From NCBI GenBank assembly GCA_036924835.1, contig JBAGRR010000001.1, positions 930,001 to 994,000 of the forward strand: DNA of 64,000 nucleotides. Direction: 5' to 3'. Source of the DNA: Nitrobacteraceae bacterium AZCC 1564. GTDB lineage: Bacteria; Pseudomonadota; Alphaproteobacteria; Rhizobiales; Xanthobacteraceae. Position 1 is the first letter of the stretch. Every line of letters starts with the position of its first letter. Below, one piece after another: positions 1 to 16,102 of this stretch. The position numbers were made by a program, and so were the translations under genes. The notes under the pieces are model-generated. The model was not told where the DNA came from, did not search any database, and worked only from the letters and a program-made list of their open reading frames with translations.

Positions 1-1826
1 ATCTTGTCTGCACAGAGGACCGCACGGACTTCGTCATCGAGAATTTCGGCCGCCGTGCCCGGCAACGTTCCGAGACCAGCCGCCTTCAGCTCGCGCAGAA
101 ATTCGACGACAGGAATTCCAAGCGTCTGCGCGCCCTGATGAATTTCCAGAGGTGAGAACGCATGCATATGCATTTGCGGCACGGCATCCTTCACGGTGCG
201 GCAAATATCGAGATACTTCTGGCCCGTGTAAGACGGATGAATTCCGCCCTGCATGCAGACCTCGGACGCACCCCGCTCCCATGCTTCGACCACACGGCCA
301 GCGACTTCCTGCATGTCGAGATCGTAGGGCCGTCCACGCAGGTTCTCGCTCATCTTGCCCTTGGAAAATGCGCAGAATTGGCACTTGAAAGAGCAGATGT
401 TCGTATAGTTGATGTTGCGTGTCACGACGTAGCTGACCACGTCGCCGTTCACCTCACGGCGCAGTTCGTCGGCGGCACGGCAGATCGCCGAGAAGCCATC
501 GCCCCGCGCGCGGAACAGGTTGATGATCTCCCCCTCGCCCAGCGCCTCGCCGCGTTGTGCCTTGGCGAGGACACGGCCCAAATTGTCGGACGGCGTGACT
601 GAAGGCGCTCTTGCAATCCAATCCACTTCACGGTTCGGCAGTTCGCCAACATGCCCCGGACACCAGTCGTCGACGCGCGGCATGCCATCGCCGTCGATGT
701 GATTAAGCACTGCGGTACGCAGCCCCTGATCAACCCAGCGATTGGTATCGCGCGCAAGTGCCGGATAGATCGCGAGACGCTCCACCAGATCCATGCCGGC
801 AGCTTTGGTCGCAGCTTCGAGCACGCGCAGGTGCGGCCACGGCGCCTCAGGATTCACGTGGTCCGGAGTCACCGGCGAAACGCCACCCCAGTCGTTAATG
901 CCAGCAGCAACAAGTCTACCGAGCGCCCCGGGGCTGAGATTTGGTGGCGCCTGGATATTCATCTGCGGTTCGAAAATCAGACGCGCGATCGCAATCGTCC
1001 AGAGATGATCCTCTACGTCGGGCGACGCCGCAGCCTCCATCCGCGTACCCGCTTTGGGGCGGAAGTTCTGGACAATGATTTCCTGGATGTGCCCGTACTG
1101 ATCATTGAGGTCGCGCAGCGCGAACAGGGAATCGATACGTTCCTGTCGCGTCTCGCCGATACCGATCAATATGCCCGACGTGAATGGAATCTGCCGTTCA
1201 CCGGCAAGCTTCATGGTTTCAAGTCGCGCAGCCGGCACCTTGTCCGGCGAGCCGTAATGTGCACCGCCCTTTTCACAAAGCCGGTCGGAGACGCTCTCCA
1301 GCATGATGCCCTGAGAGACCGAGACCTTGCGCAGGGCATCCAAGTCCTCGCCAGTCATCAGACCCGGATTGATATGCGGCAAAAGTCCGGTCTCGCGGAA
1401 TACTGCGCCCGCAGCTTCAGCCACATAAGACAGCGTCGTCGCATGTCCGAGACGATCGAGTTCTTCACGCGCGACGCGATAACGCAGCTCCGGCTTGTCA
1501 CCGAGCGTGAACAACGCCTCCTTGCATCCAGCCTTCTTCCCGGCCTCTGCGATCGCAATCATCTGCTCAATCGACAGAAAAGGCTTCTCGCCCGCGCGCG
1601 GAGCATGAGCGAACGTGCAGTAGTGGCAGACGTCGCGGCAAAGCTGCGTCAGCGGAATAAAGACCTTGCGTGAGTAAGAAACCTGCCGGCCATGCGCGGC
1701 ATCGCGCCGTGCAGCAGCGGCATTCAGGAGGTCATCAAGACCTTCGACGTGGACGAGGTGCGCCGCTTCTTCGCGCGTCAGCCTGCGGTCATTCGGGAAA
1801 TTCTGCAAAAGAGAAGTGACGTTCAT
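1..1826 (-). CDS. fbiC: FO synthase, two-domain (CofG+CofH), 3' end beyond window
   Basis: This gene makes the deazaflavin chromophore FO of coenzyme F420 from tyrosine and the ribityl-aminouracil intermediate of riboflavin synthesis, using two radical-SAM active sites. The first 608 residues are visible. The N-terminal CofG-like half carries CRDVCHYC (C64, C68, C71). The C-terminal CofH-like half carries CSFKCQFC (C478, C482, C485). Having both CX3CX2C clusters in one chain is the fused FbiC layout of actinobacteria rather than the split CofG/CofH of archaea. The ATG lies one base beyond the cofC stop codon, so translation is probably coupled. The stop codon is off the left edge, but little can be missing, since FbiC is usually about 800-860 residues. 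Confidence 0.95.
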   Translation of the reverse strand, partial: MNVTSLLQNFPNDRRLTREEAAHLVHVEGLDDLLNAAAARRDAAHGRQVSYSRKVFIPLTQLCRDVCHYCTFAHAPRAGEKPFLSIEQMIAIAEAGKKAGCKEALFTLGDKPELRYRVAREELDRLGHATTLSYVAEAAGAVFRETGLLPHINPGLMTGEDLDALRKVSVSQGIMLESVSDRLCEKGGAHYGSPDKVPAARLETMKLAGERQIPFTSGILIGIGETRQERIDSLFALRDLNDQYGHIQEIIVQNFRPKAGTRMEAAASPDVEDHLWTIAIARLIFEPQMNIQAPPNLSPGALGRLVAAGINDWGGVSPVTPDHVNPEAPWPHLRVLEAATKAAGMDLVERLAIYPALARDTNRWVDQGLRTAVLNHIDGDGMPRVDDWCPGHVGELPNREVDWIARAPSVTPSDNLGRVLAKAQRGEALGEGEIINLFRARGDGFSAICRAADELRREVNGDVVSYVVTRNINYTNICSFKCQFCAFSKGKMSENLRGRPYDLDMQEVAGRVVEAWERGASEVCMQGGIHPSYTGQKYLDICRTVKDAVPQMHMHAFSPLEIHQGAQTLGIPVVEFLRELKAAGLGTLPGTAAEILDDEVRAVLCADK

Positions 1827-1827
1827 G

Positions 1828-2532
1828 TCACACATGCCTCTCGGATGCCGGTAGAGCAGCGGCATGGAGCCGTTCCGCGATATTGAATTCAGCCAGCAGC
1901 GCAGCCGTCAGCGAGAATTTTTTGACGCCTGCCCAAGGAAGCAGATCGTCAGGGCAGTCGATGTCCCGGCCAAGACCTTCATTGCGCACGATGCCACAAT
2001 CGATGCCGCTTGCCTGAGCCAATGCCTGGTGCCGCACGAAGCTGTCGTCACCAAAACTTGGAATGATAAGATCGGGAGAACGCAACGCCAGCGCGTTGGT
2101 GCCTCCGTCGGACAGCGCAGGCGCCAACACGATTGGATGACGATCAAGCTCACCGATGACGTCGCGCAGATCACTGGCCGTGGCGAAAGGCACATCGGCC
2201 GGAACGACCAGCGCAGCGGACGATGCATCGAGCGTCTTCAGCCCCTGCTGGACGGCGGCATTGATGCCCGCCTCTAACACGTCCGTCACCACGCGGGCCT
2301 CGAACAAAGTCGCCAGGTTCGCCACCATCGGATCGCCGGTCACCACGATGGTCCCAGCAATCTCCGGCGTCGCGCACAGTGTGGTCAGAACTTCATGCAG
2401 CATGGTGCGGACGAGTTTCACGCGTTCGTTGCGCGACAAGACATCGGCAAGCCGCTGCTTGGCTCTGCTCAACCGCTTGACGGGAACAATAGCCCAGACA
2501 TGACCGGAGGTTTCTGCAGCGATCTGCATCAC
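1828..2532 (-). CDS. cofC: CofC-type guanylyltransferase of F420 synthesis
   Basis: CofC activates a three-carbon phospho-acid (2-phospholactate, phosphoenolpyruvate or 3-phosphoglycerate, depending on lineage) with GTP, giving the substrate for CofD. The 234-residue length fits the family. The N-terminus has the nucleotidyltransferase pattern WAIVPVKRLSRAKQRL, and VVPADVPFA near the middle resembles the metal/nucleotide loop of MobA-like folds. It overlaps the end of cofD by four bases (ATGA) and is followed after one base by fbiC. Which three-carbon acid is used cannot be read safely from the sequence. Confidence 0.92.
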   Translation of the reverse strand: MMQIAAETSGHVWAIVPVKRLSRAKQRLADVLSRNERVKLVRTMLHEVLTTLCATPEIAGTIVVTGDPMVANLATLFEARVVTDVLEAGINAAVQQGLKTLDASSAALVVPADVPFATASDLRDVIGELDRHPIVLAPALSDGGTNALALRSPDLIIPSFGDDSFVRHQALAQASGIDCGIVRNEGLGRDIDCPDDLLPWAGVKKFSLTAALLAEFNIAERLHAAALPASERHV

Positions 2533-3515
2533 GCGACGCTCTCTCTCTTCTGCGCAGCGGACAGCTCAGCCGCGAACTTCAGGCATTCGGCAGCCAGCCG
2601 ATCCCTATCTTCGAGGCTTCGCATCCAGGTCGAAGTTAAATGCACCGGCATACCGATTTTATCGGACTCGCCCTCGTCGGTCTGATCGATGATCAGCCCG
2701 CTTAGGAACGGATAGTGGCGGGCGATGGTCACCGAGTCCGCTGGCAGACCGAGCTCCGCCATGATCTTTGCCGTCGGTCCCTTGACCGCTTGCCCTCCGA
2801 TCAACGGAGAGACTGCAACGAGCGGAGCTCTCACTGCAGCAAGGGCCTTGCGGATATCCGCGACAGCGAGAATGGGATCGACGCTGAGATATGGATTTGA
2901 AGGGCAGATAATCACAGCAGCGAGATCCGGATTCTGGAGCGCTGACAACACCTGCGGCGTCGCAGCGGCTTTCTCTGCTCCCTTGAATTCGAGTTGTCTG
3001 ACGACCGGTGCGCATTGCAACCCGACAAAGTAGCGCTGGAACGGCAATGGTCCATCCGCAGTGACCACCATCGTCTCGATGCGGTCATCGGACATAGGGA
3101 GAATGGTCGCAGCGATGCCAAGACGACGCGCCATAGCGGTCGTGAATTCCGTCAGTGTGGTTCCACCGCGCAGCGCCTGCGTCCGCTCCACATGCATGGC
3201 GAGATCACGATCGCCCAACCGAAACCAGGTTTCGCCGCCGAGATCACCGAGCGATGCCATGAAGTTCCAGGTTTCATCGGCGCGGCCCCAACCACGCTCG
3301 ACATCACTGAGGCCGCTCAGCGTATAGACGACCGTGTCAATGTCAGGCGATACATGCAGGTCGAGATGTTCGAAGTCGTCGCCGGTATTGACGACGACGG
3401 TCAGGTCCGCACCGATCAGACGATTGAGGCCGAGCGCCAGTTTGGCTCCGCCGACGCCGCCGCACAGCGCCACCACCGGCTTGCCAACCAATGCTTTTGC
3501 GCTTGCGGTGCTCAT
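2529..3515 (-). CDS. cofD: CofD, 2-phospho-L-lactate (or analogue) transferase
   Basis: CofD (FbiA) transfers the phospho-acid part of the GDP-activated intermediate onto FO, giving F420-0 or its dehydro or 3-PG analogue. The protein has 328 residues, normal for the family. It begins with the nucleotide-binding loop ALCGGVGGAK (about residues 16-25), followed by VVVNTGDDFEHLDLHVSPD, a stretch typical of CofD. It overlaps cofE upstream and cofC downstream by four bases each, so the three genes are likely read from one mRNA with coupled translation. Confidence 0.95.
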   Translation of the reverse strand: MSTASAKALVGKPVVALCGGVGGAKLALGLNRLIGADLTVVVNTGDDFEHLDLHVSPDIDTVVYTLSGLSDVERGWGRADETWNFMASLGDLGGETWFRLGDRDLAMHVERTQALRGGTTLTEFTTAMARRLGIAATILPMSDDRIETMVVTADGPLPFQRYFVGLQCAPVVRQLEFKGAEKAAATPQVLSALQNPDLAAVIICPSNPYLSVDPILAVADIRKALAAVRAPLVAVSPLIGGQAVKGPTAKIMAELGLPADSVTIARHYPFLSGLIIDQTDEGESDKIGMPVHLTSTWMRSLEDRDRLAAECLKFAAELSAAQKRESVA

Positions 3516-4279
3516 CGGAACATATCCCGTTCGCGCGGACGGATCAGAGCAGACGCGGGCCGCGATGCTGCAGAAAACGTCAGCCCCCGGACCACAACCA
3601 CCGGCAGCCCTTCCGCTGCCTGCCCCATGAGCAACGACGCTCCAGCGGCAATTTCATCGGCCACAGCGATCTCGGTCACCTGCATCGGCCTGCCGAACAT
3701 GTCCGGCGCGCCGATCATATCCAGCAGCGATGGCAAACCTGCGACGCCAAGCGCAACGCCGACAACGCCGTTGCGCCATGGCCGCCCGAAGCTGTCATTG
3801 ATGATAACGCCGACATCAGCTCCAAAGGCAGCATCAAATTTCGACTTCAGCGTCACAGCAGAACCATCGGGATCCTTCGGCAACAACAAAACGCGTTCTT
3901 CGCCATCGCTGTGCAGGATGTTCGACTGATCAATGCCGGCGTTGGCCATCACGTATCCAAGTCGATGAGCAACGATCATGATGTTCGGCCGATAACGCAC
4001 GACCTCATCCGACTCGGAAAGAACAACCTCGATGAAACGCGCGTCCTTACCTATTTCTTTGGCAAGCGCATGCGCTTTCTCCGAAGGAACGACGCTCTTC
4101 AGCTCGACGTAGCGATCTTCGGATTTCGAAACGATTTTCTGCGCGATGACAACGATGTCGCCCGTCGTCAGTTCAAACTGTGCGGCCTTGAGAGCATCTG
4201 TGATCGCCGTGGCGAGATCGTCACCCGGCTGGATCAACGGAATGCCGGGTACGGCAAAATATGTGACGCTCTTCGCCAT
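3512..4279 (-). CDS. cofE: CofE, coenzyme F420-0:L-glutamate ligase
   Basis: CofE adds L-glutamate residues to F420-0 with GTP, giving the polyglutamylated coenzyme. At 255 residues it is the stand-alone ligase. It lacks the C-terminal FMN-binding nitroreductase-like domain that mycobacterial FbiB uses to reduce dehydro-F420-0. Family-typical stretches include VPGIPLIQPGDDL at the N-terminus, DIVVIAQKIVSKSE, and the metal/GTP region VGVIINDSFGRPWRNG. It starts 12 bases after npdG and overlaps cofD by four bases. Confidence 0.94.
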   Translation of the reverse strand: MAKSVTYFAVPGIPLIQPGDDLATAITDALKAAQFELTTGDIVVIAQKIVSKSEDRYVELKSVVPSEKAHALAKEIGKDARFIEVVLSESDEVVRYRPNIMIVAHRLGYVMANAGIDQSNILHSDGEERVLLLPKDPDGSAVTLKSKFDAAFGADVGVIINDSFGRPWRNGVVGVALGVAGLPSLLDMIGAPDMFGRPMQVTEIAVADEIAAGASLLMGQAAEGLPVVVVRGLTFSAASRPASALIRPRERDMFR

Positions 4280-4291
4280 CGCGAATGCCGG

Positions 4292-4948
4292 TTACGGAGC
4301 AGGCGCGGGAAGTCCGGTGATGCGGATACCCGCGCCCGGCACTTTGTAGCGGCGGTTGATCCCGATCAGAACTGACGTCAGCGCCTCCGCCGCAGCCGAG
4401 TTGGCAAGAACGCCCCCATCAACACCAGAGGTCGCAACTTCGCCGGCCAGCGCGATCACAAGATCACGGGCTTCCTTGTCGTTGCCGAACACCAGCACAT
4501 CGCAGTCCGCACGGCCGCCAGCATGCAGCTTCGTGGCGCCGACATTATGAAACGCAGAGACAACCTTGACGCCGTCGCCAAGCAGCTTCTGCGCGATCTG
4601 AGCGGCAGACCCTTCCGGTGGCAACTGCACGACAGAAACCTTCGGTGGCACCAGTGGCACAGCAGCGTCGACGACGATCTTGCCCTGAACGGCATCCTTC
4701 ACTTCAAGGAGCGTGGCCTCATGGCTGCCGAACGGCACCGCGAGAACCACAATGTCAGCCGACGTCGCAGCACCGACATTGTCATCACCTCGCGCATTGC
4801 CGCCTAGTTCTTTGGCGAACGCCTGCGCCTTCTCAGCAGAGCGGGATCCTATCACGACGGAATAGCCAGCGGCGATCCATCGCTTCGCAAGACCTGAACC
4901 CAGGTCGCCGGTACCTCCCAGAATAGCAATACTTGGCTTTGCGCTCAT
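4292..4948 (-). CDS. npdG: F420-dependent NADP oxidoreductase (NpdG/Fno)
   Basis: NpdG moves hydride between NADPH and F420 and so supplies F420H2. The 218-residue protein has the Rossmann loop ILGGTGDLGSGLA (about residues 9-21) and VIGSRSAEKA after the second strand, which reads NADP(H) through the arginine and serines. The length and the C-terminal GIRITGLP region fit NpdG/Fno and not the longer ProC-like reductases. A GGAAGG ribosome-binding site precedes the ATG. It lies between pxpA (40-nt gap) and cofE (12-nt gap), so the coenzyme and its reductant supply are encoded together. Confidence 0.92.
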   Translation of the reverse strand: MSAKPSIAILGGTGDLGSGLAKRWIAAGYSVVIGSRSAEKAQAFAKELGGNARGDDNVGAATSADIVVLAVPFGSHEATLLEVKDAVQGKIVVDAAVPLVPPKVSVVQLPPEGSAAQIAQKLLGDGVKVVSAFHNVGATKLHAGGRADCDVLVFGNDKEARDLVIALAGEVATSGVDGGVLANSAAAEALTSVLIGINRRYKVPGAGIRITGLPAPAP

Positions 4949-4988
4949 GTGACCGGCCTTCCCTGGATCAGATTTTTTTCGAGTGGTG

Positions 4989-5765
4989 TCAGTCGAGCGA
5001 CATCTCGGTCAGAGGCACCAGCTTGACCCCCGCCTTTTCCAGCCCTTCGCGGACCTTCTTCGCCAAAGCGACTGCGGTCGGCTCGTCGCCGTGGACGCAC
5101 AGCGAGTGCACCTTGCACGGGATCTTCTTGCCGGTGCGCGAGGTGATGGTGTTGTTCACTACCATCTCGACGACCTGCCTCGTCGCAGCTTCCGGGTCGT
5201 GCAGCACGGAACCCGGGATCTTGCGCGACGTCAGGTTGCCGTCGTCCTCATACTGACGATCGCAGAAGCCTTCGAGCGCGACCGGCAATCCGAGTTCGCG
5301 ACCGGCTTTTTCCATTTCGGATCCGGCAAGTGCCATATAGATGATCTTGGGATCGACCGCCTTGATCGCGCGACCAATGGCCATGGCGTATTCCTTATTC
5401 TCCGCGGCCATGTTGTTCAGTGCGCCGTGCGGCTTGAGGTGGGTCACCTTGACATCCGAATAAGCCGCCAGCGCCTGCAAAGCACCGATCTGATAGGCAA
5501 TCATGTATTCGAGATCCTCAGGCTTCATATCGATGCGGCGGCGCCCGAACCCCCAGAGATCGTTGAATCCGGGATGCGCGCCGACGGTGACGCCTTCCCG
5601 CTTCGCATCGGCGATGACCTTGCGCATGGTTAGCGGGTCGCCGGCATGGAAGCCACATGCGATGTTGGCGGAACCGATAATTTTCAGAATGCCGTTGTCG
5701 TCGCCGATCTTATAGGCGCCGAAACCCTCTGCCATATCTGCGTTGAGATTGATCTTGATCGTCAT
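4989..5765 (-). CDS. pxpA: 5-oxoprolinase subunit PxpA (LamB/YcsF family)
   Basis: PxpA works with PxpB and PxpC in ATP-dependent opening of 5-oxoproline. Paralogues may open other lactams. The 258-residue protein shows the family signatures NLNADMAEGFG (about 6-16), ANIACGFHAGDP (about 33-44), VTVGAHPGF and SLCVHGDEP near the C-terminus, with the conserved Asp/His residues present. It is separated from pxpBC by the molybdenum hydroxylase genes and gntR, an unusual split, since the three are normally adjacent. A predicted promoter lies upstream at 5821-5849. It is followed by npdG after 40 nt. The true substrate may not be 5-oxoproline, given the neighbours. Confidence 0.93.
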   Translation of the reverse strand: MTIKINLNADMAEGFGAYKIGDDNGILKIIGSANIACGFHAGDPLTMRKVIADAKREGVTVGAHPGFNDLWGFGRRRIDMKPEDLEYMIAYQIGALQALAAYSDVKVTHLKPHGALNNMAAENKEYAMAIGRAIKAVDPKIIYMALAGSEMEKAGRELGLPVALEGFCDRQYEDDGNLTSRKIPGSVLHDPEAATRQVVEMVVNNTITSRTGKKIPCKVHSLCVHGDEPTAVALAKKVREGLEKAGVKLVPLTEMSLD

Positions 5766-5820
5766 TGCTCGCTCCGGATTACCACGAATGGCAAAAAGTC
5801 ATCTATCACAGGCTCAAATG

Positions 5821-5849
5821 AGGATAAGGTACTATCTTTAGGATGACAA
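5821..5849 (-). promoter_or_regulatory. Predicted pxpA promoter with candidate operator
   Basis: Read on the minus strand, TTGTCA (5849-5844) and TATCCT (5826-5821) are separated by 17 bases, a fair sigma-70-type pair about 56 nt upstream of the pxpA ATG. The spacer contains AAGATAGTA (5838-5830). The same nine bases, in the other orientation, occur in the spacer of the predicted pxpB promoter. The region is also an imperfect palindrome, GGTACTATC-N8-GACAATACC (5828-5853). A role as a GntR operator is inferred. Confidence 0.4.
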
Positions 5850-5871
5850 TACCTTTGCCGCCGCTTGAGTC

Positions 5872-7080
5872 TTATTGTCTGCCGAACAGTCGGTTCAGCA
5901 GATTTTGGAACCTATCTTTTACCACTGAGAATACCAGCGATCCCGCATCAAGACCGACCTCGGCGGATGGCATGTCTCCGCTCGACTTCCCTGCCAGACG
6001 CGCTTCGAGGTTCCTCACGAACATCGCAATCAGGCGCCCGGCAATATCCTGCACGAGACCCGAGCGACTGAACTGCGCGAGCGCTCCGGTCAGCGTGAAG
6101 CCGATATTGACGTCGACACGTGTCTGATCTGGCGTGTCACCCTGCTTGACCGCATAGCCGACCAGTCCCCGCGTTGCAGAGTTGCTGCGCTTGTCTTTGC
6201 CCGAGCCGATGATCGTCCCTGTCCTGGTCGCCTCATCACGCGTGATGTCAGCGACGCCGTGGAATTCCGCCGAGATCGGGCCGACCTTGACCTTCATCTG
6301 GCCTTCGACATGGCCATCCACCGGCTCGCCGGTCAGCGACGCGCCGGGCAGACACGCCGCAACACTCGCCACATCGCCGAAGAAGGTCCAAACCACGTCG
6401 ACTGGGTGGGCGACCACGAAGCTCTGCGTAAACGTTGTCTGCGGCTTCCAGTCTGGATCCATGCGCGCGGCAGAAACAGGGGACACGCGTTTCGCGGTGA
6501 CCTTGGGCGCAGCGGCAATGCGCGGCGCCGATCCGGACGTGACCAGCACTGCGTGTCCCGATCCTGAGGGCCCGAGCCGCGTGCGATTGCCGTTCGGGAT
6601 CGCTGCGATACCACGGCTGCGCCTAGCCTCGACCACACGCTGTACCGCGCGGATGATGCCAACGTAGCCGGTGCAGCGGCAGAGATTTCCACTCATAGCG
6701 ACACGAATGTCATGCTCGCTCGGCGCCTGCAGCCGCAGCACAACATCGCGTGCGGACACGAGCATCCCCGGCGTGCAATATCCGCACTGAAGCGCATGCT
6801 CCTGCGAAAAGGCAGCGCGCAGTTCGGTCGCGATCTCGTCGTTGTCGAGCCCCTCAATGGTTGTGACTTCGGCCTGCTGGCAGGCGACCGCGTAAGTTAT
6901 GCAGGAGCGCGTCGGCACACCATCCACAAGCATCGTACAAGCGCCGCATACGCCGTGCTCGCAACCCAGATGGGTGCCTGTGAGATTCTGGGTTTCGCGT
7001 ACGAAGTCAGCGAGATGGGTGCGCGGCTGGACGCTGGCGCTGACGGATTTTCCGTTAACTGTGAGACTGACGAGATTCAT
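5872..7080 (-). CDS. Molybdenum hydroxylase iron-sulfur subunit fused to a CoxG domain
   Basis: Small [2Fe-2S] subunit of a xanthine dehydrogenase/CO dehydrogenase-family enzyme, passing electrons from the molybdenum site to FAD. The plant-type ferredoxin cluster is C40, C45, C48, C60. The second cluster is C99, C102, C134, C136 (CGYC...CRCTGY). After about residue 160 comes a low-complexity linker. Residues from about 215 to 380 then form a CoxG-like SRPBCC domain with the signature CLPGASL and the pattern VWTFFGDVASV. CoxS and CoxG are normally separate proteins of about 160 and 150-200 residues, so the 402-residue chain is a fusion. It overlaps the FAD subunit gene by four bases. The electron-transfer role is secure by family; the substrate is unknown. 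Confidence 0.92.
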   Translation of the reverse strand: MNLVSLTVNGKSVSASVQPRTHLADFVRETQNLTGTHLGCEHGVCGACTMLVDGVPTRSCITYAVACQQAEVTTIEGLDNDEIATELRAAFSQEHALQCGYCTPGMLVSARDVVLRLQAPSEHDIRVAMSGNLCRCTGYVGIIRAVQRVVEARRSRGIAAIPNGNRTRLGPSGSGHAVLVTSGSAPRIAAAPKVTAKRVSPVSAARMDPDWKPQTTFTQSFVVAHPVDVVWTFFGDVASVAACLPGASLTGEPVDGHVEGQMKVKVGPISAEFHGVADITRDEATRTGTIIGSGKDKRSNSATRGLVGYAVKQGDTPDQTRVDVNIGFTLTGALAQFSRSGLVQDIAGRLIAMFVRNLEARLAGKSSGDMPSAEVGLDAGSLVFSVVKDRFQNLLNRLFGRQ

Positions 7081-7916
7081 GCTGACTGCGCCTGTTCGAT
7101 AGCGCGCCGCAACGCGACAATATGGGTTTGCTTGTCGAGCGGATCGATCATGCCCGCTGCTTCCATCGCATCCGCGACAGCATCGCTGTTGAATACCGTA
7201 TGGAGCTGCTTTGCGCGCCCGTCGCCGAGAATGTTGCCCGCTTCAGTGACGACGATCGGCCGACTCTCGGTAGCGCCAATCACGACGCGGCTGACACCGC
7301 GATCAGGATCCGACAAGAACGAGCCGATGGCGTGCGCGAATTCACCGGTCTTGCGGCAGGTCTTGTAGTAACCCCAGCGCGCTGAACGGCTAAGTTTTGG
7401 CACTCTCACGCCAACGAGCATCTCGCCAGGCTGCAGGTCGGATTCCAGCGCACCGACCATATAGTCTTCGACTGGGATCGTGCGCTCGCCGCTCGGGCCG
7501 CGGAGCACAACCTTCGCGCCCACCGCGGCCATGATCGAGTGCCAGTCGGCCGAAGGATCGGCGTGCGTCAGACTCCCGCCGATGGTTCCGCGATTGCGCA
7601 CCGCCCGATAAGCAATCCCACGTGCAACGTATGGAAGTGCGCCGCTGGTCACATCCGGAACGCGCAAGTCCTCGATATCGGCATGGGTGATGCAAGCGCC
7701 GAGCACGATCTCGTCCGCACGCTGATCGACGCTGCGGAGTTCCTCGATGCCGGTGATGTCCACCAGTAGATCAGGCTGAACCAAACGCATGTTGAGCATC
7801 GGGCCAAGCGACTGGCTGCCGGCCATGATCTTTACCGTCAGGGTATCGTCGGCGATCAGCTTGAGCGCTTCGTTGACGTCGCCGGGACGCGCATAATCGA
7901 AATTGACCGGCTTCAC
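7077..7916 (-). CDS. Molybdenum hydroxylase FAD-binding medium subunit (CoxM-like)
   Basis: This 279-residue subunit binds FAD and takes electrons from the iron-sulfur subunit to the external acceptor. The two FAD-binding motifs of the vanillyl-alcohol-oxidase-type fold are clear: KIMAGSQSLGP (about 29-39) and RGTIGGSLTHADPSAD (about 109-124). The C-terminal CO dehydrogenase flavoprotein domain follows. It overlaps both the large subunit gene and the fused small subunit gene by four bases, so the three subunits are likely made in equal amounts. The L-M-S gene order is one of several found in this family. Confidence 0.94.
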   Translation of the reverse strand: MKPVNFDYARPGDVNEALKLIADDTLTVKIMAGSQSLGPMLNMRLVQPDLLVDITGIEELRSVDQRADEIVLGACITHADIEDLRVPDVTSGALPYVARGIAYRAVRNRGTIGGSLTHADPSADWHSIMAAVGAKVVLRGPSGERTIPVEDYMVGALESDLQPGEMLVGVRVPKLSRSARWGYYKTCRKTGEFAHAIGSFLSDPDRGVSRVVIGATESRPIVVTEAGNILGDGRAKQLHTVFNSDAVADAMEAAGMIDPLDKQTHIVALRRAIEQAQSA

Positions 7917-10276
7917 GCGGAAACTCCTTCATCCGCTTTCGTCCGATTCTTGCCCTTGGCCTGCTGAATTGCTTCCAGCACTCTGCGCGGCGTAATCGGC
8001 GATTGGAGCAATTCCGCGCCGAGCGATTTCAGCGCGTCGTTGACGGCATTGCCGATGGCGGCCGGCGGCGCAATTGCACCACCCTCGCCGAGACCTTTGA
8101 CACCGAACTCAGTGTAGGGTGCCAGCGTTTCCATGTGGCCGAGCTTCGGCGCAGGCACCTCGGTCGGACCCGGCAGAAGATAATCCGCAAAGGTCGACGC
8201 CAAGGGCTGGCCTGACGCATCAAAGTTCATCTCTTCGTAAAGCGCTGTGCCGATGCCCTGCGCGAGGCCGCCGTAGATCTGACCATCGACCACCATCGGG
8301 TTGATCAGCCTACCGCCGTCCTCGACGATGGCGTAATCGAGAATTTCGATGTCGCCTATTTCCGGATCGACCGCGACCACCGCAACGTGCGTTGCATAGC
8401 TGAAGGTCCCGGAGTCGCGCACCGGCTTGTAGCCGACCGTCGCCTCCAGACCTCTGGGATCGACAGATGGCGGCAGATCCTGCGGGCGCCGATACCACGT
8501 GTACGCGATCTCCTGCAGGGTAACGCTGCCGTTCGGGCCAACCACGGCGCCGTCGCTGAGATTAACGTTCTCGATGTCGGTCTGCAGCAAATGCGCGCCG
8601 ATGCCCATCGCAAGCTTGCCAACTTCACGCGAGGCGGTCGCCACCGCGCCACCAGCCATCACTGCACAACGCGAGCCCCAGCTTCCGGTGGAATACGGCG
8701 TATATTCAGTGTCGCCATGCACGAGCTTGATCTTGGCCGTGTCGATGCCGAGGATTTCGTGAGCCACCTGCGGCAGCGTCGTCTCCATGCTTTGGCCATG
8801 GGAGTGGACGCCGACGCGCAGTTCGAGCCCGCCATCCGGGGTCATGCGTGCAGTCGCCTGCTCATGACCAGGGACCATCGGAATGCCCCAACCGGCATAG
8901 ACAGACGTCCCGTGCGCGCCCTGTTCGCAATAGACCGCCAGGCCAACACCGATCAGCCGGCCATCGGGATCCGGCGTCTTCTGCCGCTCACGCAACGCGG
9001 CAAGATCAATCTTTGCGAGCGCTTGCCGCAGCGATTCCGGATAGTCGCCGCTGTCGAAATGCTTCTTGGTGATATTGTCGAACGGCATCTGTTCGGGCCG
9101 AACGAGATTCTTCAGCCGCACCTCATACGGCTCGAGTCCCGCCTCGCGCGCGATCGCATCCATCATCAGCTCAATGGCGAAACAGACGCCCGTGCGCGCC
9201 ACGCCGCGATACGGCAGAATTGGACACTTATTGGTCGCGACCGACCAGGTGCGGCAGCGATAAGACGGAAAATCGTAAGGCCCCGGCAAAATGCTCGCGA
9301 CCTGCGCGGCTTCCAGACACGCGGAGAATGGATATGACGAATAGGCCCCGGAATCGACCGTGGCTTCGCATTCAACACCACGCAGCGTGCCGTCACGGTC
9401 CGCATAAACGGTGATGTTGTAGTGGTGTTCGCGGCAGTTGGCGCCCGCCGTCAGATGCTCACGGCGATCCTCAATCCAGCGTACGGGATGACCACAGCGC
9501 ATTGCGAGCCAGCCAAGGCAGACGTCTTCCGTCAGCACGATGCCCTTGTAGCCGAAGCCGCCGCCGACATCGGGCGACACGATCCGCACGTTAATCTGCT
9601 CGAGCCCGAGACATTCGGACAAACCATTACGTACGATGTGCGGCTGCTGGTTGCCCGTGTACAGCACAAGCTGACCCATTCGCTTGTGCCATAGGGCGAC
9701 CGTGCCCCTTCCCTCCATCGGCGCCATACTCTGGCGCGCGGTTGAAATTTCGCGGGTAATTTTGATCGGCGCATCGTACGCCGCTTCCATGTTCACATCG
9801 ACAAATGTCTCAAGAAAGACGTTGTCGCCCCAATGCTCGTGAAGCAGCGCCGAATCCGGACGCTTCGCCAGCAGCATATCGTAAACGGCGGGTAGCTCCT
9901 CGAACTCGACCTCGACAGCAGCGGCAATATCTTCCGCTTCGGCGCGCGTGTCGGCCACACACATCGCGATCAGCTCGCCGACCTGACGCACCTTCTCGAA
10001 GGCGAGGATCGGCTGTTCGGAAACCTTGAAACCTGGCAGGCCAGATACCGCGCGGATGGGCTTCACGCCCTCAAGGTCCTTTGCCGTGAAAACGCTATCG
10101 CGGAACTGGGGCGGAATCCGAATGTCCTTGATGCGGGCATGTGCCAGCGGACTACGAACAAACGCCACGTCGCGCATACCGGCCAAGCGAATGTCCGCAA
10201 CGAACTCCCCACGCCCGCGCATCAGGCGGTCATCTTCCTTGCGCAGAAGCCGCGCACCCACACCCTGCTTCGTCAT
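7913..10276 (-). CDS. Molybdenum hydroxylase large subunit (xanthine dehydrogenase family)
   Basis: Catalytic subunit holding the molybdopterin cofactor. With the ATG at 10276 it has 787 residues. This start is preferred over the ATG two codons upstream because GAGGG lies eight bases before it. Visible motifs are GGGFGYKG (about 238-245), PYRGVAR (about 355-361) and GLGEGGAIAPP near the C-terminus, with the likely catalytic Glu at about 731. The PYRGVAR loop resembles the AYRGAGR loop of form II or other hydroxylases, not the AYRCSFR loop of true (form I) CO dehydrogenase. CO oxidation is therefore unlikely, and hydroxylation of an N-heterocycle or aldehyde is more probable. Expression is probably controlled by the adjacent GntR regulator. 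Confidence 0.93.
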   Translation of the reverse strand: MTKQGVGARLLRKEDDRLMRGRGEFVADIRLAGMRDVAFVRSPLAHARIKDIRIPPQFRDSVFTAKDLEGVKPIRAVSGLPGFKVSEQPILAFEKVRQVGELIAMCVADTRAEAEDIAAAVEVEFEELPAVYDMLLAKRPDSALLHEHWGDNVFLETFVDVNMEAAYDAPIKITREISTARQSMAPMEGRGTVALWHKRMGQLVLYTGNQQPHIVRNGLSECLGLEQINVRIVSPDVGGGFGYKGIVLTEDVCLGWLAMRCGHPVRWIEDRREHLTAGANCREHHYNITVYADRDGTLRGVECEATVDSGAYSSYPFSACLEAAQVASILPGPYDFPSYRCRTWSVATNKCPILPYRGVARTGVCFAIELMMDAIAREAGLEPYEVRLKNLVRPEQMPFDNITKKHFDSGDYPESLRQALAKIDLAALRERQKTPDPDGRLIGVGLAVYCEQGAHGTSVYAGWGIPMVPGHEQATARMTPDGGLELRVGVHSHGQSMETTLPQVAHEILGIDTAKIKLVHGDTEYTPYSTGSWGSRCAVMAGGAVATASREVGKLAMGIGAHLLQTDIENVNLSDGAVVGPNGSVTLQEIAYTWYRRPQDLPPSVDPRGLEATVGYKPVRDSGTFSYATHVAVVAVDPEIGDIEILDYAIVEDGGRLINPMVVDGQIYGGLAQGIGTALYEEMNFDASGQPLASTFADYLLPGPTEVPAPKLGHMETLAPYTEFGVKGLGEGGAIAPPAAIGNAVNDALKSLGAELLQSPITPRRVLEAIQQAKGKNRTKADEGVSA

Positions 10277-10407
10277 GCACATTCCCTCGAAGGCCCGGTG
10301 ACAACTGCCACGCCAAATTCATCCTATTTTTAGAACGATAGCAAGACCTCGTTCGCAGACTTCAACGATCAAAGAATTTGCAAAAATAGAGGCAGATTGA
10401 CGCGGAT

Positions 10408-11223
10408 TTAGGCTTTGCGAGCTTTGCTGCGCCGCGCCAAATCAACGGCTTTGTAGCCATTGCGCGCTTTTTTTTCCCGAACCGGGTTGGTCGCGAGAAG
10501 ATCCATCTGCAATTTGATGCTCTCACTACGATAAATGATATCGCCGACGTAGATGGCAATCCCGCCATCATTGACGACAACACAGTGGGCTGCGACCGTT
10601 GGCGCCCCGATCGAAATCTTCAGAAGATCGGCAATTTCGGGATCCGCACTGCCGATCGTCAGGGTCTGGTGCGCTTCAAGCAGCGTAATCTCTTCCATGG
10701 AGTCGATTGTGACCAGCGCCGCTGCGTTTTTGAAACGAACCGGATTCAAATCAAAGACTTCGCGCGCCAGAAGAATATTAACGACTGAATATGGATCCTC
10801 ATTGCGGTACTGAACGCTGCGCAATTTCACGTAGCTCGAAGCAAGATCGCCATCGGAATTGCCCAGATTGGGAGGCGGCACGTCTTCGTCGATCGTCAAG
10901 CGCCGAGGCACATTGTCCTTGAGGGAGTCGATCAAAGTATTCCAGCTCGTTGCAAGCTTGACCCAGTGACGGTCCGGAGTCTTTTTTGCAACGAACGTGC
11001 CAAGCCCCTGACGAGCCTGAAGCAATCCCTCTTCACGCAAGATGTCGACAGCCTGCCTGACCGTGACGCGCGCGACCTCGAACTCTCGTTCAAGCTCTTC
11101 AAGAGTGGAAATTTTCTCCCCGGCGCCCCATTGTCCGGACTGTATTCGCGTTCGCAACACCGAGGCCACCTGAATATACAGGGGCACGCGGCTACGATCA
11201 TATGCCTTTAACAGCTTGGACAC
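10408..11223 (-). CDS. GntR-family regulator with UTRA ligand domain
   Basis: HutC-subfamily transcription factor of 271 residues. Residues about 13-80 form the winged helix, including EEREFEVARVTVRQAVD-like recognition-helix features (TVRQAVDILREEGLL) and the wing GLGTFVA. Residues about 100-240 form a UTRA small-molecule sensing domain. It lies upstream of the hydroxylase genes on the same strand and divergent from pxpBC, the usual place for a local regulator of a catabolic operon. A shared TACTATCTT element in the pxpA and pxpBC promoters is a candidate operator. The inducer is probably a substrate or intermediate of the pathway, but is unknown. Confidence 0.9.
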   Translation of the reverse strand: MSKLLKAYDRSRVPLYIQVASVLRTRIQSGQWGAGEKISTLEELEREFEVARVTVRQAVDILREEGLLQARQGLGTFVAKKTPDRHWVKLATSWNTLIDSLKDNVPRRLTIDEDVPPPNLGNSDGDLASSYVKLRSVQYRNEDPYSVVNILLAREVFDLNPVRFKNAAALVTIDSMEEITLLEAHQTLTIGSADPEIADLLKISIGAPTVAAHCVVVNDGGIAIYVGDIIYRSESIKLQMDLLATNPVREKKARNGYKAVDLARRSKARKA

Positions 11224-11380
11224 ATTAGCACTTCTTATTGGAATCCGATGCTTGCGCGAGGATCATAACTAACCATGAAATCAAAGCAATGTGCTAGCAA
11301 CTGTTTAGCGTATGCACCTCACCGCGGGGACTATTCATTGTGACAACACCATTCGGTATGGCGCAGGAATTGCAGAGCAC

Positions 11381-11452
11381 CCTAGTCCGCGGATTTGAAG
11401 TTCTTCCGAGTGAAGCCGCAAGCCTGCGCGAACTTCGGATTCGGGACACCAG
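11381..11452. repeat. Palindromic intergenic repeat, family 1 (degenerate copy)
   Basis: The right arm GAACTTCGGATTCGGGACAC and a diverged left arm (GGATTTGAAGTTC) flank a short centre. The arms match the family-1 element at 14472-14547 (outer arm CTAGTGTCCC). It lies between gntR and the pxpB promoter. It may fold into a hairpin and act as an insulator or terminator for transcripts entering from either side. Confidence 0.6.
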
Positions 11453-11489
11453 GTGAAATGTGCATTTCCAGTCTGTCCCATTGAGGGAT

Positions 11490-11519
11490 TTGACGCAATA
11501 ATACTATCTTCGGTACAAT
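11490..11519 (+). promoter_or_regulatory. Predicted pxpBC promoter with candidate operator
   Basis: TTGACG (11490-11495) and TACAAT (11514-11519) are separated by 18 bases, a good sigma-70-type promoter 26 bases upstream of the pxpB ATG. TACTATCTT (11502-11510) fills the spacer and recurs in the pxpA promoter spacer. A protein bound there would block RNA polymerase, as expected of a GntR repressor. Binding is inferred. Confidence 0.5.
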
Positions 11520-11545
11520 AATATCAATGCGAACGGGTGTCTGTC

Positions 11546-12271
11546 ATGGCTGACTTTAGGATTTTGAAAGCGGCGGACAGCGCGCTCGTGATCGAATTTG
11601 GATCGACGATCGATCGCAAGATCAGCGACCGTGTGCTCGCACTTGCGGAAACCCTTGAGCATGCCAAGCTCCCCGGGGTCACCGAAGTCATCGCAACATT
11701 TCGTTCGCTGAGCATCAACTACGACTCTCTCGTCACAACAGGCAATGAACTCGAACAGGCGGTTCATGCGTTCGTTAATCAGTCCACGCAGGCTTCTGGC
11801 GGCAAGCGGCTTTGGGAGATTCCGGTCTGCTACGAACCGGAATTCGCGCCCGATATCGAGGAAATAGCGAAAGCCGCGAAGCTTTCGGTCGAGGAAGTGA
11901 TCACGCTTCACTCCGGCACCCAATATCATGTCTACATGATCGGGTTCGTTCCCGGCTTTCCTTACATGGGCGACGTCCCGGAAAAACTTCGATTTCCCCG
12001 CCGATCCGATCCACGAACACGCGTGCCTCCCGGTTCGCTCGCCATCGCCACCAGCATGACCGCTGTCTATCCCTATGAAAGTCCAGGCGGCTGGCACCTG
12101 ATCGGAACGTCGCCTGTGCGGTTCTTCGATGCGGCATCGGCGCGAGGCGCTCTGCTCGGCCCCGGCGATGCCGTGAAGTTCAATCCGGTCGCCCCGGCCG
12201 AATTCGAACGCATAAAGCTCGCAGTGCAACGAAACGGCTACGTTCCGGATAGTTCGGAGATTGCAGCGTGA
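11546..12271 (+). CDS. pxpB: 5-oxoprolinase subunit PxpB (KipI family)
   Basis: PxpB pairs with PxpC to form the ATP-using half of the 5-oxoprolinase complex. The 241-residue protein shows GFVPGFPYMGDVPE, RVPPGSLAIA and YPYESPGGWHLIG, the hallmark stretches of the KipI/allophanate-hydrolase subunit 1 family, in the usual order. The ATG at 11546 is chosen. A GTG three codons upstream (11537) is also possible. The last four bases overlap the first codon of pxpC (GTGA). pxpA is encoded on the other side of the hydroxylase genes, on the opposite strand. Confidence 0.93.
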   Translation: MADFRILKAADSALVIEFGSTIDRKISDRVLALAETLEHAKLPGVTEVIATFRSLSINYDSLVTTGNELEQAVHAFVNQSTQASGGKRLWEIPVCYEPEFAPDIEEIAKAAKLSVEEVITLHSGTQYHVYMIGFVPGFPYMGDVPEKLRFPRRSDPRTRVPPGSLAIATSMTAVYPYESPGGWHLIGTSPVRFFDAASARGALLGPGDAVKFNPVAPAEFERIKLAVQRNGYVPDSSEIAA

Positions 12272-13305
12272 CTCCGGTTTTCAAAGTCATTGCCCCCGGC
12301 TTTCTCACCACCGTTCAGGATGAAGGGCGGCGCGGTTTCCAGCACGTTGGAGTGCCGGTTGCCGGCGCACTCGATCGCAACGGCTTCACGCTAGCGAATG
12401 CCTTGGTCGGCAATCCGCAAAGCAGCGCCTGCCTGGAAGTGATGGGATCGGGACCAGAGCTGGAAGTCCTATGTGACTCTGCGAGGATTGCGCTGGTCGG
12501 CAGCGGGGGCGGCCTTGAAATCAAAGGACGCGATCAGCCGCTCGTCCCTTCGGGACAGACCGTGCGCGTCACCAAGGGAGAAATCGTTCGCGTCAAGCTC
12601 GGGGGCGATGCGTTTTGCTCGTATCTCGCGATTGAAGGCGGGTTCGAAGTCCCATTGTGCCTCAACAGCAAGTCCACCTATACACGGGCCGCCTTCGGCG
12701 GCTTTTCTGGACGGCAACTTCAGGCCGGTGACATTCTTGACGGCAACAAGGATGATGTTGCCGCGCGCGAGGAAGTCACTTTAAACGAGCCCCGCGATTT
12801 GCGTTTCGCACAGCCAATACGTGTCGTTCTCGGACCGCAGGACGATTTTTTCACGGAAGCGGCCATTCAAGAGTTTCTCTCCGGCACGTACACCATTACG
12901 CCGGCCTCGGATCGCATGGGCTTCCGGCTGGAAGGACCGCTGCTTGAGCACAAAGGCGGCAACTACAACATTGTCTCGGACGGTATCGTCGCCGGCTCGA
13001 TCCAAGTCCCCGGTTCAAAGTTGCCGATCATCCTGCTGGCCGACGCTCAAACGGCCGGCGGATATCCGAAAATTGCCACTGTCATCTCGGCAGACCTGCC
13101 GCTGCTCGGCGTTCGCGGATCGGGACGAACCATTCGGTTCGAAGCGGTGTCACGCGAGGAAGCCGAGAACATTCGGCGCGCCGAGCACAAGCGAATTCAA
13201 GATGTCATTCAGGCGATCCGCCCCGTGGGCGAAACGCTCGGTATCAACCTCGAAGCGCTGTACAGCCACAACCTGATTGACGGCGTCGTTGACGCATATG
13301 CGTGA
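12268..13305 (+). CDS. pxpC: 5-oxoprolinase subunit PxpC (KipA, biotin-dependent carboxylase-like)
   Basis: PxpC is the partner of PxpB. The 345-residue protein carries the family signature GRRGFQHVGVPVAGALDR near the N-terminus, SACLEV, and in the second half PASDRMGFRLEGP and DGIVAGSIQVPGSKLPIILL. These fit the KipA/allophanate-hydrolase subunit 2 fold. It starts with GTG inside the end of pxpB, so the two are translationally coupled. The last 50 residues form a helical tail. Whether the complex acts on 5-oxoproline or on a lactam made by the neighbouring hydroxylase and F420 steps is open. Confidence 0.92.
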   Translation: MTPVFKVIAPGFLTTVQDEGRRGFQHVGVPVAGALDRNGFTLANALVGNPQSSACLEVMGSGPELEVLCDSARIALVGSGGGLEIKGRDQPLVPSGQTVRVTKGEIVRVKLGGDAFCSYLAIEGGFEVPLCLNSKSTYTRAAFGGFSGRQLQAGDILDGNKDDVAAREEVTLNEPRDLRFAQPIRVVLGPQDDFFTEAAIQEFLSGTYTITPASDRMGFRLEGPLLEHKGGNYNIVSDGIVAGSIQVPGSKLPIILLADAQTAGGYPKIATVISADLPLLGVRGSGRTIRFEAVSREEAENIRRAEHKRIQDVIQAIRPVGETLGINLEALYSHNLIDGVVDAYA

Positions 13306-14309: not shown

Positions 14310-14382
14310 CCGATTCATCCTGCGTGAGCCGCACACACCAAAAGCACGCCTTGTTTCCCACGAGACGCACTCGGTTCGCAAC

Positions 14383-14458
14383 CTAGTGTGGTGGTTCAGA
14401 AGTTCGCCCGATTTCCTGCGCGTCCTTCAAGCGAACTTCTGAACCTGAACCACACTAG
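14383..14458. repeat. Palindromic intergenic repeat, family 2
   Basis: The left arm reads CTAGTGTGGTGGTTCAGAAG, continuing TTCGC, and the right arm is GCGAACTTCTGAACCTGAAC followed by CACACTAG, forming a long imperfect hairpin of 76 bases. A second copy with the same arms is at 42166-42241. It sits 14 bases from a family-1 element, giving a double hairpin between two genes that diverge from it. Confidence 0.8.
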
Positions 14459-14471
14459 AATCATAGATTTA

Positions 14472-14547
14472 CTAGTGTCCTCTCGAATCCAAAGTCCGCT
14501 ACAGAGCGCGCTGCACGATGAGGCGGACTTTGGATTCGGGACACTAG
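14472..14547. repeat. Palindromic intergenic repeat, family 1 (best copy)
   Basis: CTAGTGTCCTCTCGAATCC continues AAAGTCCGC. It is mirrored by GCGGACTTTGGATTCGGGAC followed by ACTAG, across a centre containing GCTGCACGATGAGGC. The same centre, reversed (GCCTCATCGTGCAGC), appears in the half copy at 49973-50010. This is the reference copy in this window for family 1. Confidence 0.8.
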
Positions 14548-14559
14548 GGCAGGACAGAC

Positions 14560-15945: not shown

Positions 15946-16102
15946 CCTGCGGGCTTTCCGAGTCAGATTTTCAATGTGGTTGGATTAAGCGCTTATCTAG
16001 TCGGGATAGGTGACGGTCGGCAGTAGCAGGTGTGCATGCGGCATATGCGCCAGAGCCTTACAATGGTCGCGCTGAATTTGGCCGAAAACGACCGCCTGCG
16101 GA

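Follow-up and report, generated by a model that had tools for sequence, protein, structure and literature searches.

We report a group of genes in Nitrobacteraceae bacterium AZCC 1564 that begins a stretch of 64,000 bases (the window; bases 930,001-994,000 of a contig of 5,994,409 bases) and continues to the left of it. It comprises the genes for synthesis of coenzyme F420 (fbiC, cofC, cofD, cofE) and for NADPH:F420 oxidoreductase (npdG), together with genes for a three-subunit molybdenum (Mo) hydroxylase (moS, moM, moL), a GntR/UTRA regulator (gntR), a lactamase of the 5-oxoprolinase type (pxpA, pxpB, pxpC), a pyridoxal phosphate (PLP) enzyme (PLP505), a coenzyme A (CoA) transferase (ctA, ctB), a luciferase-like protein of the LLM class (LLM), a serine dehydratase (sda) and a transporter (livKHMGF). 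We consider it probable that this island, which spans about bases 918,856-943,305, works as a single inducible regulon for the catabolism of an N-heterocyclic compound, and that F420 synthesis belongs to it. The proposal draws on features read directly from the sequences, namely the gene content, a repeated operator-like site, the conservation of the island, the descent of cofD by island type, and the use of HyuAB for Pxp in one relative. The parts are known; what is new is their combination into a proposed catabolic regulon that supplies its own cofactor. In a partial coverage of the literature, which leaves an earlier notice possible, we found no published link of F420 synthesis with Mo hydroxylase islands in Proteobacteria.

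A repeated operator-like site

A site of about 22 bases, TMCTAWYWTYRGNAHNWYADNA, which by eye reads roughly ACTATC-N8-GATAGT, was found in five non-coding stretches of the island (Table 1). The site was first spotted in the intergenic DNA of the strain itself, where a simple TGT-ACA operator pattern gave nothing useful. The best matches upstream of the relatives' genes were collected, and a position weight matrix (PWM) was trained on the relatives alone. Applied to 84 kb of the strain's own genome, this matrix gave exactly five high sites (26.8-34.2 bits), with 7.3 for the sixth and 11.4 for the best of 20 Markov sequences. When at most one mismatch was allowed, the whole 6-Mb genome (G000) contained the five island sites, one weaker match elsewhere and no match to a reversed control pattern. 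The same search yielded five matches each in the related genomes G065, G197 and G270 and four each in G106 and G262, all within the island, and five in G040, on the contig that carries its island.

We then counted sites of at least 16 bits in 29 loci that contain a block like that of the window (type A, the strain's own locus included; this count leaves aside the duplicates L115, L116 and L119 and the short contigs L117, L123, L137 and L146, which carry parts of the type A set). The site was present upstream of PLP505 (22/29), livK (13/15), pxpA (16/18), moL (11/14), pxpB (8/10) and npdG (8/22), and upstream of none of 26 fbiC genes. None of the eight npdG genes with a site of their own was preceded by pxpA. 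Because the seed of the motif came from our own sequence, the independent part of this test consists of the 16 loci outside the training set, 13 of which had the PLP505 site. Of the 28 type A loci other than our own, 27 had a site somewhere in the locus (15 of 16 among those outside the training set); among 67 cofD loci of different types, three had one (L037, L046 and L099). At 20 bits, the numbers were 26/28 and 1/67. The F420 genes are thus preceded by the site that also precedes the transporter, the hydroxylase and the lactamase; this ties them to the catabolic genes and speaks against their independent transcription. The gntR product contains both domains of a HutC-type (GntR/UTRA) local regulator, and the site is repeated upstream of the island's transcription units. 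From the position of its gene and its protein family, this regulator is predicted to bind the five sites.

Conservation of the island and descent of cofD

Of 391 genomes sampled from the family, 97 had a cofD match; among the genomes listed there for the same genus, our strain included, the number was 10 of 29. Its distribution is therefore patchy. Up to 20 kb was fetched around 80 of the 107 cofD matches outside the strain, the other 27 being passed over regardless of content, and the loci were compared by tblastn. This comparison across the family, which the initial annotation of the window had proposed, showed that 13 of the 80 loci contain a block resembling ours (type A). Ten of them had moL within about 10 kb on either side, and a Pxp gene was likewise present in ten. 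LLM, ctA, ctB and PLP505 accompanied the cof genes in 10 of the 13, and of these 10 loci 8 had moL and 7 had a Pxp gene in the DNA examined. The remaining three (L077, L083, L111) contained PLP505, pxpA and the hydroxylase genes, and in the two of them that were viewed further out (L197, L198) LLM, ctB, ctA and an M20 hydrolase gene lay beyond the hydroxylase.

Named genomes were also scanned with a PLP505 alignment. Among the best 80 of 589 relatives, the LLM-ctB-ctA-PLP505 core was found with F420 genes in Kaistia, Ancylobacter, a Rhizobium metagenome-assembled genome (MAG), a Kiloniellaceae MAG and other alphaproteobacteria, often in a different order. Ancylobacter dichloromethanicus (L163/G258) has the hydroxylase, gntR, pxpCB, pxpA, fbiC, LLM, ctB, ctA, PLP505 and liv genes in one place; the distance of cofE, cofD and cofC is about 11 kb to moL and 26 kb to PLP505 (L060, L194, L195). 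That the order is reshuffled and the company kept favours a functional tie between these genes.

Some loci had only part of the set. L114, a close type A island, contains fbiC, npdG and pxpA, and cofC, cofD and cofE were not found in the 19.7 kb examined. PLP505 and Mo hydroxylase genes occurred with no F420 gene match in the DNA examined in two Aminobacter strains (L131, L135) and a Hyphomicrobiales MAG (L156); Of these, L131 and L156 also had M20, and L131 and L135 had diaminopropionate ammonia-lyase.

A cofD tree of 88 rows was computed by a quick method with SH-aLRT support, L115, L116, L119 and rows shorter than 70% of the query being omitted. In this tree cofD grouped by island type, with 10 changes for 9 groups compared with a mean of 24.2 after shuffling, and none of 200 shuffles was as low; type A1 was split up (four changes), support was weak for 24 of the 84 inner branches and some long branches were unsure. 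Several genomes contained more than one cofD set: three in three clades in G262 (L058, L100, L103), two in G106 (L051, L110) and two in G197 (L076, L090). Since cofD follows the island type and not the genome, the F420 genes seem to travel with catabolic islands. Multiple cofD loci were also seen in G063, G023 and G380, and across such genomes most loci lie in different islands and cofD clades.

No named type could be assigned to 45 of the 80 loci, and 41 of these had no moL match in the DNA examined. F420 genes thus do occur without hydroxylase and pxp genes in many loci, which is one half of what the initial annotation had named as speaking against its grouping, but such loci fall outside the type A groups of the cofD tree. 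A same-strand moL match near cofD was present in 27 of the 80 loci (26 without the weak L055 match), where about 3% would be expected. The p value of 1.2e-4 for 6 of 26 lineages with a hydroxylase near cofD depends on lineages counted by eye, on moL queries taken in part from the same loci and on a rough background; because of this softness we relied on the site and the tree instead. Together with the recurrent association, these bear out the initial claim that the F420 genes belong with the hydroxylase and pxp genes.

The hydroxylase, the CoA transferase and the PLP enzyme

According to Pfam, the three subunits of MoSML carry the [2Fe-2S], FAD and Mo domains of the xanthine dehydrogenase-family N-heterocycle hydroxylases. 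The closest solved relative of moL is quinoline 2-oxidoreductase (1t3q_B, 460.8 bits), followed by the carbon monoxide (CO) dehydrogenases (CoxL 412.4 bits and lower). Near the C-terminus, GLGEGG of moL aligns with GMGESA of 1t3q, and we take the glutamate in these motifs to be the catalytic one. Its nearness to quinoline 2-oxidoreductase suggests that the enzyme may act on an N-heteroaromatic ring. CO dehydrogenase was rejected as an identity for MoSML. The active-site loop of the aerobic enzyme is the cysteine-containing YRCSFR; moL reads YRGVAR where 1ffu has YRCSFR, and the cut-offs of the CO dehydrogenase profiles were not reached. CO is thus an unlikely substrate, as the initial annotation had held.

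The moS-type small subunits are 399-457 residues long in 11 of the 13 open reading frames (ORFs) listed, those of L073 and L074 having 200 and 611. A CoxG domain is fused to moS here, and the CoxG of type B islands has a gene of its own adjoining the hydroxylase; CoxG may tie the hydroxylase to the membrane or to quinones. Compared with the window, L076 and L085 show lower identities for the hydroxylase (moS 62%, moM 59%, moL 79-80%) than for pxpA (86%), gntR (89-90%) and LLM (92-93%). With its genes so much less alike than their neighbours, the hydroxylase module looks as if it had been swapped in place.

CtA and CtB have the two chains of glutaconate CoA-transferase (1poi_A and 1poi_B) as closest solved relatives. 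FEGG of CtB aligns with VESG of 1poi_B, in which the glutamate is presumably the catalytic one of the beta subunit. A ring hydrolase of the IpdAB type was set aside for ctA/ctB, glutaconate CoA-transferase scoring clearly higher. A model of the PLP505 relative of L114 (pLDDT 91.7) has the predicted fold of O-acetylserine sulfhydrylase and beta-cyanoalanine synthase, with no finer indication of function.

The F420 genes and the luciferase-like protein

All four members of the F420 synthesis set (FbiC/CofGH, CofC, CofD and CofE) scored above the curated equivalog cut-offs of NCBIfam, and NpdG above that of TIGR01915. The genome contains a single cofD match. The initial annotation had predicted an F420-dependent reductase to the left of position 1. 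LLM lies there and, at the level of sequence family, agrees with the prediction, exceeding the cut-off of the F420 family TIGR03619 (199.9 versus 166.9 bits) and staying far below that of the RutA model (55.6 versus 498). Its family and its gene company make LLM the likely F420-dependent reductase. A second kind of F420H2-dependent reductase, looked for with PF04075, gave no match in the genome, but the control genomes were silent too, so that this result says little.

The proposed lactam-opening step

Cyclic amides are hydrolysed at the expense of ATP by both PxpABC and HyuAB, which are unrelated enzymes. The pxpA gene is the only PF03746 (LamB/YcsF) match of the genome. In L128 (Rhodospirillales MAG), matches to HyuA and HyuB (30-32% identity by tblastn) lie beside LLM, PLP505, M20 and gntR, and Pxp is absent. 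This exchange supports the opening of a lactam or a cyclic imide as a step, for which the predicted enzyme is Pxp here and HyuAB in that relative. An M20 hydrolase was found without Pxp in the DNA examined of L047, L061, L120, L122, L124 and L148, and perhaps fills the same slot in some other relatives.

Other kinds of F420 island

L094, L102 and L105 carry fbiC-cofC-cofD-cofE-npdG with a different, distant Mo hydroxylase, an LLM, a hydantoinase/oxoprolinase A (HyuA), DUF1028 and a GntR/FCD regulator. Nine other F420 islands (L075, L079, L089, L090, L092, L097, L101, L104, L106) have two LLMs and a distant Mo hydroxylase with CoxG; in the DNA examined, TctA was found in eight of them and a threonine-synthase-like PALP with M24 in three. 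L046 has gntR (61%) and moL (63%) like those of the window, HyuAB matches, one 19-bit site, no LLM match and otherwise different genes. HyuAB without a hydroxylase was found in the F420 loci L069-L071 and L109. In L198 (G040) a second, island-like set comes after the type A part (M20, LLM, ctB, ctA) and consists of fbiC, cofC, LLM, two moS-like genes, moM, moL and livF.

Layout of the island

The features are listed in Table 1. As the initial annotation had described, all the genes it named within the window were found in place on the minus strand, with pxpBC divergent. Its coupled overlaps were present for the most part, being 4 nucleotides for moL/moM, moM/moS, cofE/cofD, cofD/cofC and pxpB/pxpC and 38 for cofC/fbiC; they do not extend to npdG, cofE and pxpA, which are spaced by 12 to 106 nucleotides. 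Beyond position 1 the block keeps to the minus strand. All gaps from gntR through sda are at most 125 bases, and 180 bases then precede livK. No clear hint to the LivK ligand was obtained, its nearest matches being binding proteins for branched-chain and other amino acids.

Table 1. Genes and operator-like sites of the island. L002 denotes the 20 kb to the left of the window (bases 910,001-930,000); position 1 of the window comes directly after L002:20000, and negative coordinates count leftward
Feature	Position	Strand	Evidence or context
livK, livH, livM, livG, livF (five-gene ABC transporter)	-6480 to -11144 (L002:8856-13520)	-	
Operator-like site 1	-6354 to -6331		Upstream of livK; PWM 31.1 bits
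sda, one-chain L-serine dehydratase	-6299 to -4932 (L002:13701-15068)	-	TIGR00720 667 bits, cut-off 345
LLM-class (luciferase-like) protein	-4899 to -3943 (L002:15101-16057)	-	TIGR03619 199.9 bits, cut-off 166.9
ctB	-3924 to -3154 (L002:16076-16846)	-	Glutaconate-type CoA transferase subunit
ctA	-3161 to -2190 (L002:16839-17810)	-	Glutaconate-type CoA transferase subunit
PLP505, fold-II PLP enzyme	-2193 to -676 (L002:17807-19324)	-	Pfam PALP 52.9 bits, cut-off 35
Operator-like site 2	-644 to -621		Upstream of PLP505; PWM 30.1 bits
fbiC (fused CofG/CofH, FO synthase)	1865 to -603 (604 bases past the left window edge)	-	NF006687 1162 bits, cut-off 1018
cofC	1828-2532	-	TIGR03552 148 bits, cut-off 105
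cofD	2529-3515	-	TIGR01819 279.7 bits, cut-off 257
cofE	3512-4279	-	TIGR01916 279 bits, cut-off 181
npdG / fno, NADPH:F420 oxidoreductase	4292-4948	-	TIGR01915 188.2 bits, cut-off 149.8
pxpA (LamB/YcsF family)	4989-5765	-	NF003814 subfamily 355 bits, cut-off 226; PF03746
Operator-like site 3	5830-5853	+	Upstream of pxpA-npdG-cofE-cofD-cofC-fbiC; PWM 34.2
moS, [2Fe-2S] subunit with C-terminal CoxG domain	5872-7080	-	Pfam Fer2_2 and COXG
moM, FAD subunit	7077-7916	-	Pfam FAD_binding_5
moL, Mo-binding large subunit	7913-10282	-	Best PDB match 1t3q_B
Operator-like site 4	10322-10345	+	Upstream of moL-moM-moS; PWM 31.0
gntR, GntR/UTRA regulator	10408-11223	-	Pfam GntR and UTRA
Operator-like site 5	11502-11525	+	Upstream of pxpB-pxpC; PWM 26.8
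pxpB	11537-12271	+ (divergent)	TIGR00370 188.8 bits, cut-off 145.6
pxpC	12268-13305	+ (divergent)	TIGR00724 271.8 bits, cut-off 230

To the right of the block, positions 13344-19839 of the window encode a GhrA-like 2-hydroxyacid dehydrogenase, an EmrB-type MFS protein and a D-threonate-kinase-like protein, all under the equivalog cut-offs, as well as an ORF that by eye resembles TPR/methyltransferase proteins; this stretch has no high-scoring operator-like site. Two ORFs at 24917-27881 overlap in different frames and are possibly a split gene or the result of a frame error. They presumably correspond to the two halves of glutamine synthetase adenylyltransferase (GlnE).

Proposed working of the island

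We suggest that the GntR/UTRA protein would repress the five promoters until the compound or its product arrives, and that LivKHMGF would import the compound. MoSML would oxidise the carbon adjoining the ring nitrogen to give a lactam, passing the electrons to the respiratory chain. NpdG would use NADPH to form F420H2, from which LLM would transfer a hydride to the ring, with loss of aromaticity, and PxpABC would open the lactam at the expense of ATP. The resulting amino acid could be cleaved by PLP505, the serine dehydratase sending the C3 part to pyruvate; diaminopropionate ammonia-lyase, whose gene is present in L115, L118 and L124, may take the role of the serine dehydratase in some relatives. 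The remaining acid would be activated by CtAB as a CoA ester. In this scheme, we infer from the sequences the role of LLM as a ring reductase using F420H2, the order of the steps, the electron acceptor of the hydroxylase and the class of the substrate.

The initial annotation had already joined hydroxylation to a lactam, reduction by F420H2 and opening by PxpABC. Its observation of the block is confirmed by the sequences examined here and was understated. Its interpretation is partly supported: the outline stands, the chemistry resting on inference, and it had no place for the PLP enzyme, the CoA transferase, the serine dehydratase and the transporter.

Several observations weigh against the regulon reading or the scheme attached to it. 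The test of the site on our own locus is partly circular, because the seed was picked by eye from our own sequence before training. Of the five pattern matches in G349, one lies in the island, and the reversed control pattern gave two matches in G349 and two in G065 (none in the other six genomes). Mo hydroxylases are abundant, with 32 PF20256 matches in the strain (some genes give two) and 155 in ten other genomes; a single adjoining hydroxylase is therefore weak evidence by itself. L133 has LLM-ctB-ctA-PLP505 and a partial hydroxylase, with no cof genes in 16.4 kb and no site. The Pxp genes are only partly present in the DNA examined of the type A loci (pxpA 18/29, pxpB 10/29). M20 is found together with Pxp in L074, L077, L083 and L111, and is therefore not a simple substitute for it, and L064 has no M20, Pxp or hydroxylase in 19 kb. 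The three Pxp proteins did not all exceed the equivalog cut-offs expected of a 5-oxoprolinase: PxpA passed two subfamily models and no equivalog, PxpB passed its cut-off, and PxpC passed the broad TIGR00724 only, with 223.8 bits against the 500 required by the PxpC equivalog NF045499. The real substrate of PxpABC need therefore not be 5-oxoproline. More generally, the sequence evidence for the island singled out no particular substrate. Finally, the genome has 12 PF00296 matches besides LLM, so that the user of F420 could be another protein.

Alternative explanations

The identity of the LLM cofactor is at the centre of one alternative, in which LLM would be an FMN-dependent monooxygenase and open the ring by oxidation, in the way that RutA acts on uracil, and F420 would serve another enzyme of the cell, the genes sharing a regulon for some other reason. 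In Foldseek searches with LLM, FMN-dependent bacterial luciferases came out on top, above Fgd and Mer, with F420 enzymes (5lxe, 8qpl, 1z69) close behind; the fold therefore leaves the use of F420 and of FMN unseparated, which is a further point against our reading, and monooxygenases including RutA itself (5wan) were among the matches. The 13 PF00296 matches of the genome would also accommodate a separate F420 user. We nevertheless find this distinctly improbable, given the scores of LLM with TIGR03619 and the RutA model and the fact that LLM and the cof genes are kept together in type A islands of several families under one repeated site. It is also quite unlikely, in our judgement, that LLM runs in reverse, oxidising an alcohol or a hydroxy acid with F420 while NpdG converts F420H2 to NADPH, in which case F420 would be an acceptor of the lower pathway and no ring would be reduced. 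Alcohols are oxidised by some LLM-class F420 enzymes, for example Fgd and Adf, the structural matches of LLM include Fgd chains, and LLM sits in the PLP505-ctA-ctB-LLM-sda run, away from the hydroxylase genes. Ring reduction fits better with the recurrence of lactam-opening enzymes in other F420 loci with other partners, and the low potential of F420 suits it to reductions, as stated in the part of a 2021 review that deals with this property (PMC8498797).

A third possibility, also unlikely, is that the island is a modified reductive purine (uric acid) pathway, with an XdhD-like hydroxylase, an F420 reductase for YgfK, M20 for YgeY and diaminopropionate ammonia-lyase as YgeX, and with a purine or hydantoin-type substrate. 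Distant PLP505 homologues (Chloroflexi, Actinobacteria and others) have SsnA and Mo hydroxylase genes as neighbours, joined in L166 and L177 by genes for LLM and for 8-oxoguanine deaminase-like proteins, which hints at kinship with reductive purine degradation, though the marker SsnA is not among the island's ORFs. Diaminopropionate ammonia-lyase is present in the three type A loci named above and M20 in others. A putative F420-dependent yanthine reductase from the luciferase family is encoded in uric acid clusters of Chloroflexota, according to the available text of PMC12507026, where SsnA is also called one of the most identifiable enzymes of the pathway. Neither SsnA nor a dihydropyrimidinase-type HyuA or a YgeW homologue was found among the annotated ORFs of the island, the glutaconate-type CoA transferase and PxpABC have no place in the uric acid pathway, and moL is nearest to quinoline 2-oxidoreductase among solved structures. 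Finally, the F420 genes and PxpABC might be household genes that merely lie beside a Mo hydroxylase. The single pxpA of the genome and the frequency of F420 loci without a hydroxylase would agree with this, but we give it hardly any credence, since the shared site is confined to the island except for one weaker match, the gene set is conserved in reshuffled order in several families, and cofD descends by island type and is absent from most genomes.

Comparison with known systems

The proposed regulon resembles the reductive uric acid cluster (XdhD, YgfK, SsnA, HyuA, YgeW, YgeY, YgeX; PMC12507026, as far as the available text goes) in having an enzyme of the Mo hydroxylase family, reductive dearomatisation, hydrolytic ring opening and a fold-II PLP lyase. 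It differs in lacking SsnA, HyuA and YgeW, in that Pxp (HyuAB of the oxoprolinase type in a relative) would open the ring, in the added CoA transferase and in the F420 synthesis genes, which sit in the island behind its repeated site; its substrate is probably not uric acid. Quinoline 2-oxidoreductase (1t3q) is, like MoSML, a three-subunit N-heterocycle hydroxylase, and unlike it has no CoxG domain on the small subunit.

In anaerobic indoleacetate degradation, a Mo hydroxylase forms oxindoleacetate, upon which an ATP-dependent hydrolase of the oxoprolinase type and a CoA transferase act. Hydroxylation next to the nitrogen, ATP-driven lactam opening and formation of a CoA ester would thus be common to both systems, whereas indoleacetate degradation has no F420 step and no PLP enzyme, and uses a HyuAB-type enzyme where the island has PxpABC. 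Among ATP-dependent lactam hydrolases (PxpABC 5-oxoprolinase, and the caprolactamase CapAB in the accessible part of PMC8453981), the island shares the PxpA, PxpB and PxpC families, with the HyuAB type in a relative. It departs from 5-oxoprolinase in its PxpC score and in the site upstream of pxp, which is common to the hydroxylase.

A precedent for ring reduction is found in the picrate degradation of Rhodococcus, in which the F420H2-dependent LLHT picrate reductase reduces the ring, as described in the relevant portion of PMC8498797. There, as is proposed here, F420H2 feeds an LLM-class enzyme that adds a hydride to an aromatic ring, the substrate being a nitroaromatic carbocycle. The putative yanthine reductase of Chloroflexota mentioned above would be a second precedent for hydride transfer from F420 to a ring. 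NpdG has a role in picrate degradation, and F420 is widely made in Actinobacteria anyway; we know of no Mo hydroxylase or lactamase in that pathway.

Implications

In the excerpts available of the 2021 review (PMC8498797), the reason why Proteobacteria make F420 is listed as unanswered, experimental work on bacterial F420-dependent enzymes had until then been confined to Actinobacteria, and only traces of F420 are reported for the two Alphaproteobacteria named there. We tentatively propose, with not quite even confidence, that alphaproteobacterial F420 is often no household cofactor but a travelling accessory, its genes being carried (and here switched on) in separate catabolic islands with their own hydroxylases, LLM reductases and amide hydrolases, so that a single genome may have two or three sets, and that the present island represents an undescribed aerobic reductive dearomatisation of N-heterocycles. 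The site common to the F420 genes, the transporter and the hydroxylase could explain both the purpose of F420 and its trace levels, the coenzyme being made only when a particular nitrogen-ring compound is present. If true, this would offer one specific reason for F420 synthesis in such bacteria, and the question of F420 in Proteobacteria would become testable in cultured relatives, for example Kaistia granuli or Ancylobacter species.

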